A stretch of DNA of 64,000 nucleotides from Patagioenas fasciata (Eukaryota; Chordata; Aves; Columbiformes; Columbidae), in NCBI RefSeq assembly GCF_037038585.1, contig NC_092521.1, positions 53,328,398-53,392,397 of the forward strand. Reading direction: 5' to 3'. Below are positions 47,641 to 59,100 of the stretch, piece after piece. Position 1 is the first letter of the stretch. The number at the start of each line of letters is the position of its first letter. The notes beneath the pieces were generated by a model that did no database searches, was not told the origin of the DNA, and was given only the letters and a program-made list of their open reading frames with translations. The translations under genes and the position numbers were made by a program.

Positions 47641-48646
47641 TGGCCTCTGTGTGTCACAGGGAGGCAAACGCAGGTGCCCATCAAAATCCGCTGTACGCCA
47701 CCACTTATCTTCCGTTGCTTAAACATCTAGGGGTTTGAATTTTAGAGAAATCACACTATCTCTAGCAGGAAATAAATGCTATTGTTGCGCTACTCATCTT
47801 CAGCCTCCTATTTTTCTCTTCAAAACGAGTTCATGAGATGCTAGCTTGATGGCACAGTGAAATAACCTGTGGATAAATAAAATTTTAAAATGTTGCTGTT
47901 AGTGAAAAATGCAGCGGTTCTGCTAGAAAAAGATAAAATGAAGTCTCAGTATAGTACTTGCTTGTGTTGAAAACTACAGCAGTATAAACAAGTTACTGGA
48001 ATAGTGGAATTGTCCTCTGGGAGAAACATAGTGACTTTTTTCATCAGGTGCATAACTCCTGCCCCTTCCTGAGTCACTGATGTTTTTGTAGAATGCACTG
48101 ATACAGGAAGTGAATTGCTGCCCAGTGCATCACTCCTTTCTTAAAAATTATTAATTTTAAAATATTTTTTCTACCCACTTTTAGATATAGTAAAATGACA
48201 TCCATATTTTGCCTGGGTACTCAAAACTGCCAGGCTTATTTTTGTAGTAAATAGGTTATTTCCTTTCAAAAGGTGGAACTGTCTTAAATCTTTAAGTATT
48301 TGTGAATGCTAGACAATTCCCTCCAGTGTGGAAGGAGCTTCCCTTTTACAATTTCATTATGTGCTGTTTCTTTCTTTGACAGTGCCTCAGATGCTCCTGT
48401 GATAACCTTATTAGTCTTGAGAAACATGTCACACTCTGACCTGCAAATGACACTTCTTCCTTTTGTTATGCTCTCTGTTTGTGCTCCATCTGCACAGTGC
48501 CTGGCACAGTATGGATACACTTAATATCTAGAGTCAGCTTTTCCTGTAATGCAAGTAATCATCTGGTGGAGAAAAGCATGGAACCATAGGAAAGGTATGG
48601 CTGGCTGGCTGTTTTTTCTCTCTGCTTTTCTGTGTTTTCTGAATGC
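47641..48646. other. Intergenic DNA upstream of ZBTB14, no gene recognised
   Basis: About 1 kb between the CpG island and the duplicated segment next to the retrovirus. It contains only short open frames and no recognisable repeat. Confidence 0.5.
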
Positions 48647-48944
48647 GTGCTGTGTATTTCAAATTGTATCATCACTGAGACACTAAAATAGAGGAAGGGT
48701 ATGTTCACTATCCAGTCATGTTAACTATGAATTGTGGAGAATGAAAAATAAAGCATTGTTACTAACTGTGTCACATTTTTTATTACATATGGTGTCCCAG
48801 GTATTTGCCATGTGGTCTGAAGTTATCTGTCAGGTGAGCCTGCAAGCTGGGAGATGGACTTCCTCGCTTCTGTGTGGAAGTGCTGGAATGCTACCGGATT
48901 GTTAATGCTATAGATAACCGTATAAAGTGTGTACAGCGAGCAGC
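48647..48944. repeat. 298-bp direct repeat, left copy, abutting the provirus
   Basis: The sequence starts GTGCTGTGTATTTC and ends GCGAGCAGC directly before the LTR's TGTC. The copy at 55873-56170 is identical over all 298 bases. The unit is unique-looking host DNA, not LTR sequence, and shows no gene. Confidence 0.98.
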
Positions 48945-49608
48945 TGTCGAGGGTTAAGATTGCGGGGTGACAATCAAACCCTGGCAGATGTATTGTTAAC
49001 CTTCTCTCCCCCCCACTTCCCCCTTTTGCCCCTCCCTCTCCCCCCTTCCCACTCAGGACAGGCGATCGGGAGGGAAAGAAGGACAGAGAGAAGAGAGTTG
49101 GAAAAGTTAAAGATGTTTTACTAACGCTACTAATAAGAATAGAGAAAATAATACAAAATATACAAAACCAATCTTGTAAGTCTCAGCAACTGCAGAGCCA
49201 GCACCCGAAGTCCTGGATTAGACTCTGTAGCCAACCGGAGCTGGATTCAGTCTCTCACTAGGCCTCAGTTCGCAGGGACGACCAGCAAGGTCCTCTCCTA
49301 ATGTCAGCCATGAGGAAAAAGGGAAAAGGCAAAGGGAAAAAGGGACGAGATCCTCGTGATCTCCCACTTTTATATGAAGTATTCACGTGAATGGAATGTT
49401 ATACACCGTTGGTCAGTCTCTCGATCACCAGTTTCTCGTTGCCCCTCTCGCGAGATGTCCATCCGTGCTTATCAATAAGTTTGCATTCCATTGCTAGGTT
49501 TAACCAAAACATGTGTCGGGTTCTCCAGGAAAATGCAGCTAATATGAAGGCTTTAGCTGACAGGCAAATTCACTAAAAGAGAAACTTGTTTTTAACAAAA
49601 CCAGGACA
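48945..49608 (-). mobile_element. 3' LTR of the endogenous retrovirus (664 bp)
   Basis: The ends are perfect: TGTC at one side and GACA at the other. On the element's strand (minus) a TATA box (TATAAAA, 49374-49368) is preceded by a CACGTG E-box about 12-20 nt upstream. A variant polyadenylation signal AGTAAA lies at 49122-49117, and the terminal U5 region is G-rich. It differs from the other LTR by about three substitutions and one single-base gap. Confidence 0.96.
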
Positions 49609-49623
49609 TTCCACCCCTTATAA
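49609..49623 (-). other. Polypurine tract next to the 3' LTR
   Basis: On the minus strand AAGGGGTGGAA directly precedes the LTR's TGTCC. This is the position and composition expected of the plus-strand primer for retroviral DNA synthesis. Confidence 0.8.
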
Positions 49624-49973
49624 TATGACATTCACTGAATACTTAAACCTTATCAGTACAATCTATCAATATAATCTAATTAATCACTACTACTATATAT
49701 ATATATATACATATGTACATATATACACAGGAGTAATTAATCAGTGGACCATCCTTTGAAAAGTTCATTAAGTTCATTTTGTCACAACAGTCTCCCAGGG
49801 CAGGAAAAATGATACAAGTGCATCTCACGACCACTGTTTGTGGGTTAAGGACACCAACTTCGAAGAAGGTGTCGGGCGCCACTCGAGGAAGCTAGCTCTA
49901 GTTTCATCACCATTGTCTTGATCTGAAAGACACTTATTAAACATTGTTAGTGCAGCAATTCACATCATACAGT
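49624..49973 (-). other. Non-coding tail of the provirus, no env
   Basis: About 350 bp between the integrase stop and the polypurine tract. It holds a TA microsatellite (49691-49711) and a Lys-primer-like decamer (49872-49881), but no open frame worth annotating. Confidence 0.75.
49872..49881 (-). other. Primer-binding-site-like decamer inside the proviral tail
   Basis: The minus strand reads TGGCGCCCGA, identical to the first ten bases of a tRNA-Lys3-type retroviral primer site. The bases after it diverge from the standard 18-mer. It has the same polarity as the true primer site at 55184-55201. It could be chance or a relic. Confidence 0.4.
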
Positions 49974-50729
49974 TCAGCATTGCATATTTTCACCTAAAAT
50001 CAAATCCCCTTGAGGTACACACCGAACTTCTCCATCCTTAAGCATCACCCACCAGGTGCTGCCAGGTCCCTGGGCAAAAACAATCCCACGAATAGGTTTG
50101 CCTTTGCCTGAGGCAGGAGTAACCCAGACTGCCTTTCCTAATATATTTTTCATGTGTACTACAGGGACTTTATCTCCTTCTACAGTCCGTAGAATTTCTG
50201 ATTGGGCAGGCCCGGCTCGATTGGTTGATCCCCTAGTGTTGACCAACCAAGTGGCTTTTGCTAAATGTGAATCCCAGTTTTTAAAGGTTCCACCACCAAG
50301 TGCCTTTAGTGTAGTTTTTAACAAACCATTGTACCTTTCAATTTTCCCAGAGGCTGGTGCATGATATGGGATATGATATACCCACTCAATACCATGTTCT
50401 TTGGCCCAATTGTCTATAATACTGTTTTTGAAATGAGTACCATTGTCTGATTCAATTCTTTCTGGCGTACCGTGCCGCCAGAGGACTTGCTTTTCAAGGC
50501 CCAAGATAGTATTTCGGGCTGTAGCATGAGGTACGGCATATGTTTCCAACCATCCAGTGGTTGCTTCCACCATTGTAAGTACATAGCGCTTACCTTGACG
50601 TGTTTGTGGAAGTGTAATATAATCAATCTGCCAAGCTTCTCCATACTTATACTTTAACCATCGCCCCCCATACCATACAGGTTTTAACCGTTTTGCTTGT
50701 TTGATTTTCGGCGCAAGTTTCACATTCAT
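49974..50729 (-). pseudogene. pol: Retroviral integrase catalytic core and C-terminal domain (pol, shifted frame)
   Basis: A frame of 251 codons encodes the integrase core that joins viral DNA to the chromosome. The catalytic triad is visible: Asp36 (WQIDYITLPQ), Asp95 (ESDNGTHF) and Glu131 (SGKIERYNG). Exactly 35 residues separate the last two, the DD35E pattern. The C-terminal domain follows (GIVFAQGPGSTWWVMLKDGEVRC), where a DNA-binding SH3-like fold is expected. It is not a separate gene. The N-terminal zinc-binding part lies in the preceding pro-pol frame, and a one-base shift in a four-base homopolymer (plus strand T-run 50705-50708) separates the two. The listed ATG at 50729 is incidental. 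Integrase from this copy would be incomplete unless ribosomes shift frame. Confidence 0.9.
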
Positions 50730-53166
50730 GAATAACCTGTGAAATAGTGTCCATAGTTAAATCCACCCCTCGATCACGAGCCCATTTGTATGTTGCATCT
50801 CTACCTTGATGCCCTGAAGCATCATGGGCCCACCGAGCTAGGAAAAGTTCACCTTTATGTTGCCAATCCAAGTCCACCTCAGCTACTTTGATCTTAGCAG
50901 CTTGATCCGCTTGTTGGTTGTTTAGATGTTCCTCGGTGGCTCGACTTTTAGGCACATGAGCATCTACATGACGAACTTTCACAGGCAGGCTCTCTAGCCG
51001 AGCAGCAATGTCTTGCCACAGTGTGGCAGCCCAAATGGGTTTACCTCTGCGCTGCCAGTTGCTTTTCTTCCATTGCTGTAGCCACCCCCACAAGGCATTT
51101 GCTACCATCCATGAGTCAGTATAGAGATAAAGTATTGGCCACTTCTCTCGTTCAGCAATGTCCAAAGCCAGCTGGATGGCTTTCACTTCTGCAAACTGAC
51201 TGGATTCACCTTGTCCTTCAGTGGCTTCTGTAACTTGTCGTGTGGGACTCCACACAGCAGCTTTCCACCTTCGATGTTTTCCTACAAGACGACAGGATCC
51301 ATCTGTGAACAGTGCATACTGCTTATCAGTCTCTGAAAGCGTATTATATGGTGGTGCTTCTTCAGCACGTTTTACTTCCTCCTCATCTGGAGACATCCCA
51401 AAGTCTTTGCTTTCTGGCCAGTCTGTAATAACTTCTAATATCCCTGGACGGTTGGGACTTCCAATTCGAGCTCGTTGCGTGATCAGTGCAATCCATTTAC
51501 TCCATGTAACTTCGGTTGCATGATGTGGAGAGGGAACCGTCCCTTTGAACATCCAGTTCAGCACCGGCAGTCGAGGTGCCAGGAGGAGCTGTGCTTCAGT
51601 GCCGATCACTTCTGAAGCAGCTCGAACTCCTTCATATGCTGCTAGTATCTCCTTTTCAGTTGGAGTATAGTTGGCCTCAGATCCTTTGTATCCTCGACTC
51701 CAAAAACCTAAGGGTCGACCTCGGGTTTCTCCTGGTGCTTTCTGCCAGAGGCTCCAGGAAAGTCCATTATCTCCGGCTGCGGTGTAGAGCACATTTTTAA
51801 CACCTAGTCCAGTTCGGACTGGTCCAAGGGCCACCGCATGAGTTATCTCACGCTTAATTTGTTCAAAGGCTTGTCGTTGTTCAGGGCCCCACTCAAATTG
51901 GTTCTTTTTACGAGTCACTCGATAGAGAGGGCTCACAATGTGGCTGTAGTCAGGAATATGCATTCTCCAAAAACCTACAACGCCCAAGAAAGTCTGTGTC
52001 TCCTTCTTATTAGTAGGTGGAGACATTGCTGCAATTTTGTTGATCACATCCATTGGGATCTGACGACGGCCATCTTGCCATTTTATTCCTAAAAACTGGA
52101 TCTCTCGTGCAGGTCCCTTGACCTTGCTTCGTTTTATGGCAAAACCAGCATCCAAAAGAATATGAATTATTCTCTCACCTTTCTCAAAGACTTCTTTCGC
52201 TGTGTCGCCCCATACGATGATGTCATCAATATATTGCAAGTGTTCTGGAGCTTCACCTTGCTCCAGAGTGGTCTGGATCAGTCCATGGCAGATGGTAGGA
52301 CTGTGTTTCCACCCCTGGGGCAAGCGATTCCATGTATACTGGATGCCCCTCCAGGTGAAAGCAAACTGCGGCCTGCACTCTGCTGCTACAGGAATAGAGA
52401 AAAATGCATTAGCAATGTCAATTGTAGCATACCACTTGGCTGCCTTCGACTCCAGTTCAAATTGCAGCTCTAGCATGTCAGGCACAGCAGCACTCAGTGG
52501 TGGTGTAACTTCATTCAGGCCACGATAGTCTACAGTTAGTCTCCACTCATCACTAGACTTACGCACTGGCCAGATTGGGCTGTTAAAAGGTGAGCGGGTC
52601 TTACTGATCACACCCTGGCTTTCCAATTGACGGATCAGCTTCTGGATAGGAATCAAAGAGTCTCGATTGGTGCGATATTGCCGGCGATGCACCGTCGTGG
52701 TAGCAGTTGGCACCTGCTGATCGTCAACCCTCAGCAGTCCTACAACAGAAGGGTCATCTGAAAGACCAGGCAAATCAGACAGCTGTTCAATTTTCTCAGT
52801 GTCCACAGCTGCTATACCAAATGCCCACCTATACCCTTTTGGGTCCTTAAAATACCCTCTCCTGAGGTAGTCTATACCAAGGATGCACGGAGCATCTGGA
52901 CCAGTCACAATGGGATGCTTTTGCCAGTTTTGTCCAGTTAGGCTCATTTCAGCCTCTACAACAGTCAGTTCCTGGGATCCCCCAGTCACTCCAACAATAT
53001 TGATGGATTGCGTTCCTTTATAATTAGAAGGAATTATTGTGCACTGAGCACCAGTGTCCACTAAAGCTTTGTACTCCTGGGGTTGTGTTGTACCAGGCCA
53101 TAGTATTTGTACAGTCCAATAAACTCTGTTATCCCTTTCCTCCACCTGGTTGGAGGCAGGGCACCT
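50647..53166 (-). CDS. pol: Pro-pol: protease, reverse transcriptase, RNase H and integrase N-terminus
   Basis: Same frame as gag, opening directly after the amber codon at 53169-53167. There is no ATG near its start, so it is expected to be made as a Gag-Pol fusion by readthrough. Numbering from the first GTG (53145): retropepsin with VDTGAQC (Asp30) and CILGIDYL (87-94); reverse transcriptase with the first catalytic Asp in TIDIANAF (243), LPQG (275-278) and YIDD (305-308); a tether region with PLGFWSRGY (478-486); RNase H with Asp615, Glu653, Asp677 and Asp747; integrase HHCC zinc motif His774, His779, Cys808 and Cys811. After about residue 812 the wording loses sense and stops at TAA (50649-50647), because of a one-base shift at 50705-50708. 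All enzyme motifs seen are uninterrupted up to that point. Confidence 0.93.
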   Translation of the reverse strand, partial: RCPASNQVEERDNRVYWTVQILWPGTTQPQEYKALVDTGAQCTIIPSNYKGTQSINIVGVTGGSQELTVVEAEMSLTGQNWQKHPIVTGPDAPCILGIDYLRRGYFKDPKGYRWAFGIAAVDTEKIEQLSDLPGLSDDPSVVGLLRVDDQQVPTATTTVHRRQYRTNRDSLIPIQKLIRQLESQGVISKTRSPFNSPIWPVRKSSDEWRLTVDYRGLNEVTPPLSAAVPDMLELQFELESKAAKWYATIDIANAFFSIPVAAECRPQFAFTWRGIQYTWNRLPQGWKHSPTICHGLIQTTLEQGEAPEHLQYIDDIIVWGDTAKEVFEKGERIIHILLDAGFAIKRSKVKGPAREIQFLGIKWQDGRRQIPMDVINKIAAMSPPTNKKETQTFLGVVGFWRMHIPDYSHIVSPLYRVTRKKNQFEWGPEQRQAFEQIKREITHAVALGPVRTGLGVKNVLYTAAGDNGLSWSLWQKAPGETRGRPLGFWSRGYKGSEANYTPTEKEILAAYEGVRAASEVIGTEAQLLLAPRLPVLNWMFKGTVPSPHHATEVTWSKWIALITQRARIGSPNRPGILEVITDWPESKDFGMSPDEEEVKRAEEAPPYNTLSETDKQYALFTDGSCRLVGKHRRWKAAVWSPTRQVTEATEGQGESSQFAEVKAIQLALDIAEREKWPILYLYTDSWMVANALWGWLQQWKKSNWQRRGKPIWAATLWQDIAARLESLPVKVRHVDAHVPKSRATEEHLNNQQADQAAKIKVAEVDLDWQHKGELFLARWAHDASGHQGRDATYKWARDRGVDLTMDTISQVIHECETCAENQTSKTVKTCMVWGAMVKV

Positions 53167-53169
53167 CTA
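53139..53169 (-). promoter_or_regulatory. Gag amber stop with downstream hairpin (possible readthrough signal)
   Basis: Gag ends in TAG (53169-53167) and the same frame continues into protease. Ten bases downstream, CCTCC (53156-53152) can pair with GGAGG (53143-53139) across an eight-base loop. Gammaretroviruses use an amber codon plus a downstream RNA structure for readthrough. Whether this one works that way is inferred. Confidence 0.5.
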
Positions 53170-55017
53170 ATTCCTGTTTTGCACAGTCTCTGGGTGTGAA
53201 TTAGAGGTTCCTTCAAGAGCATCAGAATCTCTTCTGCTCCTTTTGTAAACTGGAGCAGCCACCTTCCTAGGAGTTTTTCCTTTTATCTCACGTACTCGTT
53301 CTTGAAGTTCTGAGGTAGGCCTTCCATGCCACTTATTCATGTTTTCTCCCTGCTCATGTAGGAAGAACCACAGTGAACCTCTTTTTGTGGGCTGTCTCTG
53401 CCTTCTCTCTCGAGATTGGAAACGCCTTCTCCTAACAGCTGAAACATAGGTTTGTGCAGGTCGTGAACGGTACGAGTCTTCTCTGAGCTCTTTGATTTCT
53501 TGCAACAGCTTTTCAAACCGGTCATCAGATTTTTCACACAGTTTCTCCACAGCGGAGACACAAGCCCGTAGAGAACCAGCAAGGCTGTCCTCAAAGTACC
53601 GGAGCTGCTCAATCACTTCATTAATTTCTTGTATACCTCTAGCCGACCAGACCATTCCTGCCAATGACTTAGCATATGCAGGTGGTGCACTTTGTACAAA
53701 TCTGCGCCACATAGATTTTGTACAATTGATTCTATCTGGGTCTGTCCCCTCTTGGCTGTTTGGTCCTAGATAGATGATCTCTCGCACAGCTAATTCTCTC
53801 AGGAACTGGATACCTCTCTCCATAGTATTCCATTTCCCTAACTTGGATATACAATCTTCCTTGTAGGGAAATCTAACTTTCATAGCTGCCAGGAGTCGGG
53901 TCCAGAGAGTAGCGGCATTAGACTCTCTTGAAATTGCCCTATCAATGGTGGAATCTTTTGACAGAGATCCCAGCTGCCTGGCTTCACCACCTTCTAATTC
54001 AATTGTTTCTGCCCCATTGTCCCAGCATCGCAGCAGCCAGGTTAAAATATTCTCGCCTTCACGACGACTAAAGTCTTTTCGCAGATCTCTCAGCTCACCT
54101 GGAGAAAAGGACCGAGTGGTGGTCACTTCATCTCCACCCTGTCCTGATGATGATGCCTCTTGGGTTGATGTTGGCCCTGTGCCATCACCTGCTGCACGGG
54201 TAGTCTTTCTAGTGACTTTCTTACAACCAGCAACTGATGCTGATATGGGTTCACCATCATTTGATTCATTTTCAGAGTCTGAATGACTGTCACAGTGATT
54301 GCTGTGGTTACAGCAGCAACAGTGCCCAGTGTGTGAAGACGGGGGGGCTGCCTTGTTAGCCTTTGAGGCTGGAGAAGTAACGTTATCTGCAGCGACCTTG
54401 GCAGAGGAGCTCTGCAGAGGAGCTGTAGCTTCAGCCTGTGAAGCCGCGGTTGGGGGGGCAGTGGCTGCAGCAGCAGCTTTGGCTGTTTTGCCTCTTCTCG
54501 AGCGGCTAGGAGTGCTTTTTGCTAAAGCTTCCGAAGGCGCACCACAAATCTCAGGACTAAAAAGAGACGCAAACCTCCTATTGAACCTCATTTCTCTTAG
54601 CAGTAACACAAACTGACACACATTCAGCAAACCAAATAACACCATCACAGTTCTATCAAAGCTCCAAGGGTATTCAAAGTTCTCTAAAACATTTGCAAAC
54701 TGTCCCAGCGAAAACACAAAAGTATTGTTAGTCAGCCTTTCTAAATATTCGCTTGACCAATTAGCAAATATAGAGCCATTCTGCTCTTTAATCTCTCCTG
54801 GAGGTTTTTCAAGGTAAAGCAGAAGCGAGTAGAAATTCATTAGCGGCTGCAGTATAATGAAATAAACCAGTGCCAAACCACACAGAATCATCATGACCGC
54901 TGTCCAGTTTCTTGTTGTTATATAATGAATACTTCGATTCAGAAAGAAACACCAACACAGATATGGGATCAGTGAGCACAATGTAGAAAATAACTGATAC
55001 AACTTATGCCACAACAT
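53167..55017 (-). CDS. gag: Gag with N-terminal membrane segments
   Basis: 616 residues from the first ATG after the primer site (55017; A at -3, no upstream ATG in the leader). An open frame reaches a GTG seven codons earlier, but that is not a plausible start. Numbering from ATG: hydrophobic segments at about 8-26, 39-69 and 124-141. Two N-glycosylation sequons lie between the second and third (Asn86, Asn97). An Ala/Ser/Lys-rich linker runs from about 158 to 300 and contains a His/Cys cluster (229-248). A helical capsid-like region follows (about 301-458), with FSPGELRDLRKDF and WNTMERGIQFLREL. A probable coiled coil spans about 461-515, and an Arg/Lys-rich C-terminus lacks the CCHC knuckle of most retroviral nucleocapsids. 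It should assemble particles and package RNA. The membrane part suggests assembly at an intracellular membrane, by analogy with IAP Gag. The frame is intact. I do not recognise the N-terminal region from a named family. Confidence 0.85.
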   Translation of the reverse strand: MLWHKLYQLFSTLCSLIPYLCWCFFLNRSIHYITTRNWTAVMMILCGLALVYFIILQPLMNFYSLLLYLEKPPGEIKEQNGSIFANWSSEYLERLTNNTFVFSLGQFANVLENFEYPWSFDRTVMVLFGLLNVCQFVLLLREMRFNRRFASLFSPEICGAPSEALAKSTPSRSRRGKTAKAAAAATAPPTAASQAEATAPLQSSSAKVAADNVTSPASKANKAAPPSSHTGHCCCCNHSNHCDSHSDSENESNDGEPISASVAGCKKVTRKTTRAAGDGTGPTSTQEASSSGQGGDEVTTTRSFSPGELRDLRKDFSRREGENILTWLLRCWDNGAETIELEGGEARQLGSLSKDSTIDRAISRESNAATLWTRLLAAMKVRFPYKEDCISKLGKWNTMERGIQFLRELAVREIIYLGPNSQEGTDPDRINCTKSMWRRFVQSAPPAYAKSLAGMVWSARGIQEINEVIEQLRYFEDSLAGSLRACVSAVEKLCEKSDDRFEKLLQEIKELREDSYRSRPAQTYVSAVRRRRFQSRERRQRQPTKRGSLWFFLHEQGENMNKWHGRPTSELQERVREIKGKTPRKVAAPVYKRSRRDSDALEGTSNSHPETVQNRN

Positions 55018-55183
55018 CTTTAAGTCAATGTAATTCACTTTGCCTTAATACCACTAAATAATATCCGAAGCAAACAGACGCGCGAGTATCACAACTCTAT
55101 GAGTTGGCACTGTGCCAAGAAAATTGAAAGGTACGTCAGAGCAGCAGAAAAGCCGAAAATCTCCAAATTTACCCCTTTCTCTG
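55018..55183 (-). other. Proviral leader between primer site and gag
   Basis: 166 nt with no ATG on the element's strand, so the gag ATG is the first one downstream of the primer site. Packaging signals would be expected here, but none can be recognised from sequence. Confidence 0.6.
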
Positions 55184-55201
55184 GCCCCACGTTGGGCGCC
55201 A
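55184..55201 (-). other. tRNA-Lys(1,2)-type primer-binding site
   Basis: The minus strand reads TGGCGCCCAACGTGGGGC, the 18-base complement of the 3' end of tRNA-Lys(1,2), six bases after the LTR end. This primer is known from several betaretroviruses, some lentiviruses and foamy viruses. Confidence 0.93.
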
Positions 55202-55207
55202 ATTATC

Positions 55208-55872
55208 TGTCGAGGGTTAGGATTGCGAAGGTGACAATCAAACCCTGGCAGATGTATTGTTAACCTTCTCTCCCCCCCACTTCCCCCTTTTGCCCCTCCC
55301 TCTCCCCCCTTCCCACTCAGGACAGGCGATCGGGAGGGAAAGAAGGACAGAGAGAAGAGAGTTGGAAAAGTTAAAGATGTTTTACTAACGCTACTAATAA
55401 GAATAGAGAAAATAATACAAAATATACAAAACCAATCTTGTAAGTCTCAGCAACTGCAGAGCCAGCACCCGAAGTCCTGGATTAGACTCTGCAGCCAACC
55501 GGAGCTGGATTCAGTCTCTCACTAGGCCTCAGTTCGCAGGGACGACCAGCAAGGTCCTCTCCTAATGTCAGCCATGAGGAAAAAGGGAAAAGGCAAAGGG
55601 AAAAAGGGACGAGATCCTCGTGATCTCCCACTTTTATATGAAGTATTCACGTGAATGGAATGTTATACACCGTTGGTCAGTCTCTCGATCACCAGTTTCT
55701 CGTTGCCCCTCTCGCGAGATGTCCATCCGTGCTTATCAATAAGTTTGCATTCCATTGCTAGGTTTAACCAAAACATGTGTCGGGTTCTCCAGGAAAATGC
55801 AGCTAATATGAAGGCTTTAGCTGACAGGCAAATTCACTAAAAGAGAAACTTGTTTTTAACAAAACCAGGACA
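55208..55872 (-). mobile_element. 5' LTR of the endogenous retrovirus (665 bp)
   Basis: Same structure as the 3' LTR: TGTC..GACA termini, TATA box at 55638-55632, and an upstream CACGTG. It should drive the proviral transcript on the minus strand, toward ZBTB14. The few differences from the other LTR include a cluster within about 20 bp of the U5 end. Confidence 0.96.
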
Positions 55873-56170
55873 GTGCTGTGTATTTCAAATTGTATCATCA
55901 CTGAGACACTAAAATAGAGGAAGGGTATGTTCACTATCCAGTCATGTTAACTATGAATTGTGGAGAATGAAAAATAAAGCATTGTTACTAACTGTGTCAC
56001 ATTTTTTATTACATATGGTGTCCCAGGTATTTGCCATGTGGTCTGAAGTTATCTGTCAGGTGAGCCTGCAAGCTGGGAGATGGACTTCCTCGCTTCTGTG
56101 TGGAAGTGCTGGAATGCTACCGGATTGTTAATGCTATAGATAACCGTATAAAGTGTGTACAGCGAGCAGC
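55873..56170. repeat. 298-bp direct repeat, right copy, abutting the provirus
   Basis: Identical to 48647-48944. It starts directly after the LTR's GACA and runs without interruption into unique flank (AGGAACAAAG). It shows no gene. Confidence 0.98.
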
Positions 56171-59100
56171 AGGAACAAAGATTGTTAAAATTTAGAAGTA
56201 CCAGGTAGTAATAATAATAATAAAAATAATAATTAAAAATCAATAATAATAAATTGCAGGTGCAGTTCAAGCAGTTGCTAATAAGTTGCTTATTTGAACT
56301 AATGCCTATGAGGCAATTACGCATTTCCCCATGATTAATTTGTCTGAGTAACTGAAGTGGGCAAGAAATAGAAACCAGCATCACATGAGAATCCAGGTCT
56401 CTGGTGAAACCTGCTGGTCTATAGTGCAATTGTGAACACGAGCCCTATACGTCCCATGAACACCCTATGCTGAAAGGTGTCAGAGGAGCCTACAACTCAT
56501 CTTGGATGCTGCTGTGTGGAAAGCATATCTACAATAGCTGCATATATAAAACTGAAGCATGAGAACGGGTCTGAATCTGGGTGTGTTACTCTAGGTTTTG
56601 CCAATGAAAGTGAAGGTAAAGGACACAGAAATTTCTGCTGAAAAGACCTTGGATTGAAAAGATGTATTATTGAAGGTGAAGCATTAGAATAAGAAAACAC
56701 ATTTCCTCTAACATGTCTGTGGGATAATGTAGGTAGCCATGGCAGTTGCAAAAGCAAGTATCAAAAAAGCAGCTTTCCAGTCTACTTTCCAGCAGTATAC
56801 CCTTCTGTAGAAAAAGCGTACTCAGGAGGAAAAAATGTCCTGATCATGGATCTGACTGAAACACTCTTCCTATGAAGTAATTCTCTATGAAATTACACTG
56901 TATCATGCTAATACAGAATAATATCTGAGGTTTGAAGTAGTTTTGCTATTTTCTTATCTGATGACCCAGACAGTAGGTACTGTGGAATGCTGAACCAACA
57001 GGCTGTTTCCAGACTGTTTGGATTGCAGGGATATCTGTGGGGGAAAAGAGCCCTTTGTAGGATGCACTTGTTTGTTTAGAAAATTGTGTGATGGGCGTGA
57101 GGAATGACAACTGCCACTTTCTACAACCACGTGTGAGGCGTGGAAGATGGCACACAGGAAAGGCTGAAGGTTTGCATCTAATGTGTTCTAAGTGGCAATT
57201 GGTTTTAAAATGTATATTGAAGGTCAGTGGTTTCTTCTGTATGTCTATATGAGTTACGAACAGTTATATGAACATTGCAATGTTATGGCCAGCTTTCTTC
57301 TATTCTAATTGTATCTTGGTCTTGCAGACATAGTCATTGCACAAGAACATAGATTTTTCTGTGTTCACTTTTCGTGGGTCAGATTTCTTGTCAGACTGAG
57401 CAGGCAAAAGAAAATGGAGATACAAAATGCCCTGTATTTGTGAATGGGAGTTGCAGAGTCTGTTCGCTTATTCCCATGTGTCAGCAAGGATGGTCTGTGT
57501 CAGCCTCCAGAGAGTGTAAGTGAACGCGCTAGGACAGAGGAGGACAGCCAGGGAGCAGACGCTCCTTGCAGTGTGTGGGTTTCCCATAGCAACCTGGCAA
57601 ATTTCCCAGCAGAAATTTGCGTGCGAGTTAGTAATGTTTTTGCATCACTTACTTCTGTATTTTCAAGCATCTCTACAAATGAGGGACTAGTAGAGACAAA
57701 GGAGGAGAAGCAGGGAATAGATGGTGAAGGTTGTCGGCTCGACCTTCAGCTAAGCTGTACGAACAGCAGGAGATGGTGAGAGGCCATCACCCCACCTGAA
57801 TGACTGAACAGCACTCACAATTTGCACCTGAACCAGAAGAAACACAAGTCCTCTCTGGAAACCCTGATCTCTAAAATCTTATTTAATAGTATTGTATTCT
57901 AAGTAGAAAAGCATCTTAATTACATACTTTTATTTCCAATTAATTCAAGTACACCTTGTAACATGTATCTAGTCATGTTTAGTAACACATGATGATAGAT
58001 GTTTGTCAAAAGTTGTGGTAGGTCAGAGATGTGGTCACATGAACACAGCAGTTCATGCTCTGTGCATGCACAAGGCTGTCCACATTCTCTTTGTTTCTAA
58101 GCAAAATAGTCAGGTCTGGCTGTAAGTTGCATAACTTTGCACACCTTATTACTGTCTCTGTTGGACTGTCTCTCTGCCTCTCTGTTCCTCCTCCTACCTC
58201 TTTTTTGGTATATTTCTTCATGGTTTTGGGTTTGCATTTCTTTATTCCTTGTCCCTGTTTCTTCCCTATATCCCCACTGTCCTCTCATTTTTCCTTTTCT
58301 TTCTTCTGTCGCAGTCAGTTACCATTCTCTAGGACCATTTCTTGACTCTGCTTGACATCTTCGATTGAAACCATATAGACAGTGAGTGAAGATGGATACC
58401 ACTTTTTGGCATCAAGTTTCAGAGGAATATGATGAAACTTTACTTTCTTTTCCTCTCCCACAGTGTTCTCTCTGTGTTTCCTTACTCTTGTGCCATTATT
58501 TTCTTGCCTTATTCACCTGTGATCCTGTACTCTGGTGCTGAAGCTAAGAAGTGCCACAGGTAGAGGCTTTAGGGAGCAGCAGTGAGTACTGTCAGCCTCA
58601 ACACCCAATGGAAAGAGAACACTGAGCAGATGTGAGAACTCCTAGAGAAGAAAGAAAGAGCACTACATCTGTTTGGATCCTTCCACCTAGGTAAAGATAG
58701 ATGGTACCAAGTGAACAAAAGCTTAAAATTATACATTCAATCTTAACATGGGTATTTCCAGACTTTGAAGTGTGTAACATGCATTATAAGAGGAATAGAA
58801 GGCATTGTGGTGAATTAGCTAATACGCACTAGGCAAGAGCTGTTCCCGTGCTTGATTTCTCTTTGTATTGCAGACCTGCTGATGTTATGAACATGCTCCT
58901 AAGGAGCAACTGGTCCACAGGGGTATAACAGCTTCCTCATGCCTGATCTATCAAAAAGAACATATTTCTCATTCACAGGTCAGGTGTAGTTTTGATTTAC
59001 AGACCACTTATGCCATCTGGTTCTGTAAGACTAGAATGGTGATTTCATTTTCAGCCATGTTTCATGTTCAAAGTGGAGTCTTTCAGTATGGAGCTAACAG

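Follow-up and report, generated by a model that had tools for sequence, protein, structure and literature searches.

An env-less, spuma-like endogenous retrovirus family of birds with a predicted polytopic membrane module at the N-terminus of Gag

The window analysed here, a stretch of 64,000 nucleotides from Patagioenas fasciata, holds on its minus strand a provirus whose features are listed in Table 1. The two LTRs are 99.4% identical in a self-BLAST comparison (3 mismatches and one gap), by which this copy is young, and yet its pol frame is broken near 50650-50730, because the integrase core sits in another frame. The primer-binding site is of a type that we take to be tRNA-Lys. Stop-codon readthrough would fit the course of the gag frame, which stays open past its TAG, through the protease and as far as the integrase zinc domain, to 50647. 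In the interval of 193 bases between the LTR and gag, the sole ATG is that of gag itself. Of the five ATGs within the 5' LTR, one (LTR position 298) follows a TATA-like site at 235, and the transcript may therefore contain a short upstream ORF. On the strand of the element, neither AATAAA nor ATTAAA occurs in the LTR (55208-55872), and the polyadenylation signal is therefore not obvious. Rfam had no match within 48000-57000.

Abutting the outer ends of both LTRs is a perfect direct duplication of 298 bp (48647-48944 and 55873-56170). A retroviral target-site duplication at this place is expected to measure 4-6 bp. The longer duplication could come from one aberrant integration, or from two insertions 298 bp apart that were joined by recombination or by an assembly of two haplotypes.

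Table 1. Features of the provirus and of its Gag protein, with positions in the window.
Feature	Positions	Strand	Basis or remark
5' LTR (TGTCCTGG...CCTCGACA)	55208..55872	-	self-BLAST
3' LTR	48945..49608	-	self-BLAST
Primer-binding site TGGCGCCCAACGTGGGGC	55184..55201	-	read from sequence
gag ORF, 616 aa	53167..55017	-	ATG at 55017, TAG stop at 53169-53167
pro-pol: protease, RT, RNase H, integrase zinc domain	50647..53166	-	gag frame, past TAG
Integrase core	49974..50729	-	different frame
Polypurine tract AAGGGGTGGAA	49609..49619	-	read from sequence
Gag N-terminal membrane module (predicted), residues 1-159	54541..55017	-	profile common to relatives
Hydrophobic segment 1, residues 8-26	54940..54996	-	weakest of the three
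Hydrophobic segment 2, residues 38-69	54811..54906	-	
Loop, residues 70-119, predicted luminal	54661..54810	-	sequons N80, N86, N97; family motif ENFEYPW
Hydrophobic segment 3, residues 120-142	54592..54660	-	followed by basic REMRFNRRF
Capsid (CA) fold, residues 294-499	53521..54138	-	
Conserved C-terminal helical pair, residues 545-581 (LWFFLHEQGENMNKW...)	53275..53385	-	block pLDDT 78-90

The best solved-structure matches of pol are two Pr125Pol chains, 7o24 (1.1e-51) and 7o0g (1.1e-50), which we take to be from foamy virus, followed by two PR-RT-RNase H chains and then by p80 RTs, presumably of MLV type. Pr125Pol and p80 RT chains rank far above lentiviral RTs, the only class II RTs recognised among the best 60 structure matches listed, so that this is not a class II pol like that of IAP. 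By this ranking of structure matches, without a tree, the RT is nearest to those of foamy viruses, as in class III elements. Two further class III traits are found in the pigeon copy, namely a Gag without zinc knuckle or Gly-2 and, as in most class III elements, the lack of env, for which there is no room because only 365 bases separate the integrase ORF from the 3' LTR, with no minus-strand ORF of at least 80 aa between them. The env and accessory genes of foamy viruses have here neither space nor ORF. Both strict marks of ERV-L, a dUTPase near the end of pol and a major homology region, are also missing: the two pol ORFs gave no dUTPase match at E up to 1, and the pattern QX3EX4(hydrophobic)X2R was found in the CA of none of the 13 representatives introduced below. 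Owing to the lack of dUTPase in its pol ORFs, the element is named spuma-like class III and not ERV-L in the strict sense. Judged by its sequence, then, the pigeon element is an env-less, spuma-like (class III) ERV.

The first-pass annotation of this locus had pointed to three hydrophobic stretches and glycosylation sequons fused in one open frame to a capsid-like region, and this layout of Gag is confirmed (Table 1). In the N-terminus of Gag, Pfam has no match above cut-off, no significant solved relative was found by sequence, and Foldseek returned no match with E <= 0.001; the rows aligned to residues 1-72 of the relative P0004 are assorted helical proteins, and no fold is claimed. Structure prediction, which had been proposed as a check, yielded helical models; the AlphaFold2 confidence for Gag is low to modest (mean pLDDT 53.6). 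The structural match list for the pigeon Gag's own CA model contains other retroviral capsids, rather than foamy-type ones. The strongly conserved C-terminal helical pair (residues 545-581; consensus LWFYLRDHGEDMRKWDGKPTS), for which Pfam has no match above cut-off, lies near the C-terminus of a Gag without zinc knuckle. The linker of gag also holds a Cys/His-rich run, HTGHCCCCNHSNHCDSHSD (54277-54333, residues 229-247), which does not fit CX2CX4HX4C and is common to P0001 and P0002 but absent from the other aligned relatives.

One protein search, at E up to 1, returned 78 matches, and another, at E up to 0.01, returned 527 (best 120 listed); a comparison set of 164 sequences, pigeon Gag included, was drawn from the 78 and from the best 120 of the 527. 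The nearest database proteins are P0001 (94%) and P0002 of Columba livia (90% over residues 1-269). No mammal names appear among the best 120 of the 527 matches listed, and no DNA relatives of the element were found in collections of viral contigs, genome contigs or plasmids. Two bird-type gag proteins, P0007 and P0014, are filed as Klebsiella pneumoniae (FK518/FK519, on contigs of ~2 kb), probably through contamination of a bacterial assembly.

A profile seeded with 12 N-termini matches 46 of the 164 sequences (domain E < 0.01) and is nearly completely covered in 28, among which are the 12 seeds; the remaining 16 do not match by construction. A complete or partial module occurs, among others, in Columba livia, Buteo, Morphnus, Accipiter, Theristicus, Mycteria, Anas, Anser, Manacus and Chamaea, that is, in a pigeon, hawks, an ibis, a stork, a duck, a goose and two passerines. 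The recurrence of this N-terminus in related bird gags, another check proposed at the outset, is thus borne out, with the pattern mostly kept despite low identity. By the same profile, the module is absent from 118 sequences. In 83 of these, the gag part begins within the first 60 residues of the protein (in six, at the start of the matrix-like domain discussed below), and 35 are joined to more than 60 residues of other sequence, which in some of them looks like pol, like a LINE-type RT or like exons of host genes (USP4, AMFR). Given the many shortened or fused gene models, relatives that naturally lack the module may exist. One doubtful case is P0063 (Alca torda), whose short N-terminus has one hydrophobic stretch after an NDS sequon and was missed by the profile.

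That the N-terminus is the captured exon of a host membrane protein, or flanking sequence fused to a single copy, had been considered in the first-pass annotation, and both origins are very improbable. Bird gene models do include fusions of Gag to host genes, namely USP4 and AMFR, with the junction behind the module or within the linker. The module, however, lies inside the element, between the primer-binding site and the capsid, and relatives in several bird orders carry it at the same place, so that a read-in from the flank of one copy is rejected. A search with residues 1-175, run at E up to 10 on 563 candidates that had words in common with the query and 0.55-1.75 times its length, found P0001 and P0002 and no host protein, which lends weak support to the absence of a host source, because relatives such as P0004 were also missed.

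As for these host gene models, DUSP/ubiquitin-like exons are joined to gag in the USP4 models P0086 (Buteo, a 56-member cluster), P0094 (Accipiter) and P0018 (Tyto). The junction falls just after the membrane module, and on the host side it is identical in hawks and barn owl (LAKSCLGLQK). USP4-Gag is possibly an old, co-opted fusion; against common descent, the gag parts of Tyto and Buteo are 76% identical, the same value as between Tyto and an unrelated copy, P0024 (76%). AMFR models that end in the gag linker and capsid are present in owls (P0038, P0042/P0043, P0048) and in parrots (P0044, P0045). In owls and parrots alike, the host part ends in IQVPFPTQ, followed in P0042 by an extra stretch before gag, and the gag parts are only 57-60% identical between owls and parrots, about as unlike as other copies.

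In eight of the 35 fused models, three of USP4 and five from Mycteria, gag sets in directly behind segment 3, and a Gag without the module might therefore arise by splicing. These models bear on the reading of the module as a leader that is cut by signal peptidase or by the protease of the element, whereby a soluble Gag is freed and the membrane part times or places translation. This reading, which we regard as unlikely, accounts for a hydrophobic N-terminus and finds a parallel in the Gag of Ty1, described as being translated at the ER and passing through its lumen without a recognisable signal (PMC3945221). On the other hand, the fused models are gene predictions, and the similarity among relatives reaches through segment 3 and the basic tail, which is more than a cleavable signal requires.

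Many relatives hold, after segment 3, a matrix-like domain of 80 residues (W.G.W ... TPEQ ... CWALA), and a profile of it, built from 19 relatives, matches 95 of the 164 sequences. The domain is absent from the pigeon Gag, P0001 and P0002, and in the passerine P0035 segment 3 runs straight into the linker without it. The persistence of the membrane module where the matrix-like domain is missing suggests that, of the two, the module is the more needed.

An 85% BLASTP rule left 13 representatives, pigeon Gag included. The pairwise identity of their modules ranges from 10 to 87% with a median of 29%, and it is 10-31% to the pigeon copy. Hydrophobic peaks of ~1.7-2.5 are found in most representatives. 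In 11 of the 13, segment 2 reaches at least 1.6 and segment 3 at least 1.37, the latter threshold having been chosen after the values were seen; P0057 (segment 2, 1.16) and P0111 (segment 3, 1.11) fall below. A sequon is present in the loop of 12 of the 13 (P0131 has none), compared to a mean of 6.1 for shuffled loops, where 12 was reached in 2 of 2000 shuffles, although these counts are not independent because the representatives share ancestry. Just before segment 3, [EQ][ND][FI]E[YF] can be aligned by eye in 8 of the 13, among them the pigeon Gag with ENFEYPW. In a stop-free neutral simulation, both segments were kept in 299 of 500 runs at 70% identity, in 119 at 50%, in 84 at 40% and in 63 at 35%, the last including 22 runs that also kept a loop sequon. 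A simulation that allowed stops was set aside, since it mixes loss of the ORF with loss of the module. The retention of the pattern despite low identity is an indication that the module is under constraint.

Pooled over the representatives, the density of K+R falls from 0.11 in the 14 residues ahead of segment 2 to 0.05 within the loop and rises to 0.18 over the 25 residues that follow segment 3; the bias is not seen in P0020 and P0082 (with 6 K+R and 6 D+E in the loop, and 3 of each after segment 3). Under the positive-inside rule, the pooled pattern points to a luminal loop and a cytosolic capsid. Hydropathy, sequon and pooled charge patterns agree with one another and would fit two or more spanning helices with a glycosylated loop. 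A rougher measure is less clear, as segment 3 of the pigeon Gag scores 1.74 on a home-made, approximate insertion-energy scale, which is not clearly favourable, and the same holds for several other segments. The hydrophobic helices might instead pack on one another or against neighbouring Gag molecules and stay out of membranes altogether, as the low confidence of the helical models and the weakness of segment 1 would allow. We hold this to be decidedly unlikely, given that the hydrophobic peaks of most representatives, the sequons in the loop and the pooled positive-charge bias fit a membrane protein.

Gly-2 and the zinc knuckle CX2CX4HX4C are absent from the 13 representatives as far as their sequences reach (P0020 lacks the initial Met). 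None of the late motifs P[TS]AP, PPXY and YPX(1-2)L occurs outside CA in these proteins, of which P0024, P0064 and P0057 end early; the only two matches, PPAY in the pigeon Gag and PPTY in P0024, are both inside the capsid. The lack of Gly-2 and of late motifs outside CA agrees with a Gag that does not leave via the plasma membrane.

Taken together, we consider it fairly probable that the N-terminus of Gag is a polytopic membrane module of ~160 residues that is directed to the ER and conserved in a family of env-less, spuma-like bird ERVs. The membrane-integral Gag that the first-pass annotation had suggested for an env-less element gains support from the recurrence of the module, its segments, its sequons and the pooled charge. 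In the mechanism that we propose, the hydrophobic N-terminus would be recognised co-translationally and inserted in the ER, where segments 2 and 3 would span the membrane. The loop between them would face the lumen and be glycosylated, whereas the entire capsid, like the basic stretch that follows segment 3, would remain cytosolic. Segment 1 could be a further span, with the N-terminus in the lumen, or lie along or in the membrane. Gag would then assemble on the cytosolic face and either bud into the ER or stay docked there, and the cycle would be completed without Env inside one cell lineage, as in IAP. For this Gag, the choice of the ER over another membrane, the topology, the glycosylation and the budding are all inferred. 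The findings suggest that these env-less elements stay within the cell, with an internal membrane as their place of assembly.

Alternatively, the module could place Gag at the cell surface or where cells touch, and there help capsids to pass directly from cell to cell without Env. In favour of this, the element is env-less and has a conserved, sequon-bearing membrane part, and sORF2, a transmembrane protein found likewise in env-less LTR retrotransposons (the MDG1 group of Drosophila), is described as transferring capsids from cell to cell (PMC11952523). However, sORF2 is a separate short protein with an ORF of its own, whereas the bird module is fused to Gag, and none of the three late-motif patterns occurs outside CA. 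We judge this reading to be about as unlikely as that of a cleaved leader, if not slightly more so. A bolder reading, which we think rather unlikely, is that in an entire avian retroelement lineage a polytopic glycosylated domain within Gag itself has taken the place of Env, myristate and late domain. If this were true, spanning helices and luminal glycans would be densely arrayed on every particle, the capsid protein serving at the same time as a kind of envelope protein. With no Env at all, such particles would assemble and perhaps move from cell to cell or from one germ-line compartment to another.

Several retroelements share part of this picture. Foamy viruses have an Env, the leader of which helps Gag to bud, whereas the bird element has no env and holds its membrane part within Gag. 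The glycoGag of MLV is a membrane-inserted, N-glycosylated Gag that starts upstream of the ordinary Gag. The bird Gag is predicted to resemble it in both membrane insertion and N-glycosylation; unlike in glycoGag, the module belongs to the single gag ORF found.

Class III elements offer parallels too. The cited accounts describe the Gag of ERV-L as having neither zinc knuckle nor myristoylation signal (PMC8278194, PMC2717909), and particles of MuERV-L, an env-less class III element, as accumulating in the ER (PMC5930517). MuERV-L and mammalian ERV-L share with the bird element their class, the lack of env and a Gag without zinc knuckle (PMC8278194, PMC2717909). They differ from it in that MuERV-L has a dUTPase (PMC2717909), of which there is none in the pol ORFs of the bird element, and in that the ERV-L major homology pattern is unmatched in the bird Gag; foamy viruses also appear without this region (Table 2 of PMC8278194). 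For XtERV-S, the portions of the source cited here report a Gag with basic regions (PMC8278194), and for Ovex1 a Gag with a polybasic and coiled-coil N-terminus (PMC2717909), with no such module mentioned in those portions for either. Searches of open-licence papers, with hits judged mostly by their listings, brought up none recognised as an account of a multi-span Gag N-terminus in bird ERVs.

IAP is a class II element, and its N-terminal targeting signal is a signal peptide. Its pol sets it apart from the bird element, whose pol is spuma-like. Loss of env together with the gain of an ER-targeting signal was apparently enough to turn the infectious progenitor of IAP into a retrotransposon (PMC4643047), a change located at the N-terminus of gag (PMC2791754), and IAP Gag is reported to contact SRP (PMC3945221). 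The mouse IAP would share with the bird element the lack of env, an ER-directing Gag N-terminus and an intracellular cycle, the last two being predictions on the bird side (PMC4643047, PMC2791754). The first-pass annotation had proposed an undescribed system; since an ER-directed Gag combined with env loss is the known IAP route, the claim narrows to the multi-span, sequon-bearing form, which is apparently a new variant. The assembly site of bird elements, and a Gag that takes over membrane functions after env loss, would become open to test. If our reading is true, the bird family would be a further, apparently independent case of the IAP route, reached by a spuma-like element in birds, and it would embody a different solution: where IAP relies on a short N-terminal targeting signal, the bird Gag would use a module in which two or three hydrophobic spans are combined with conserved sequons.
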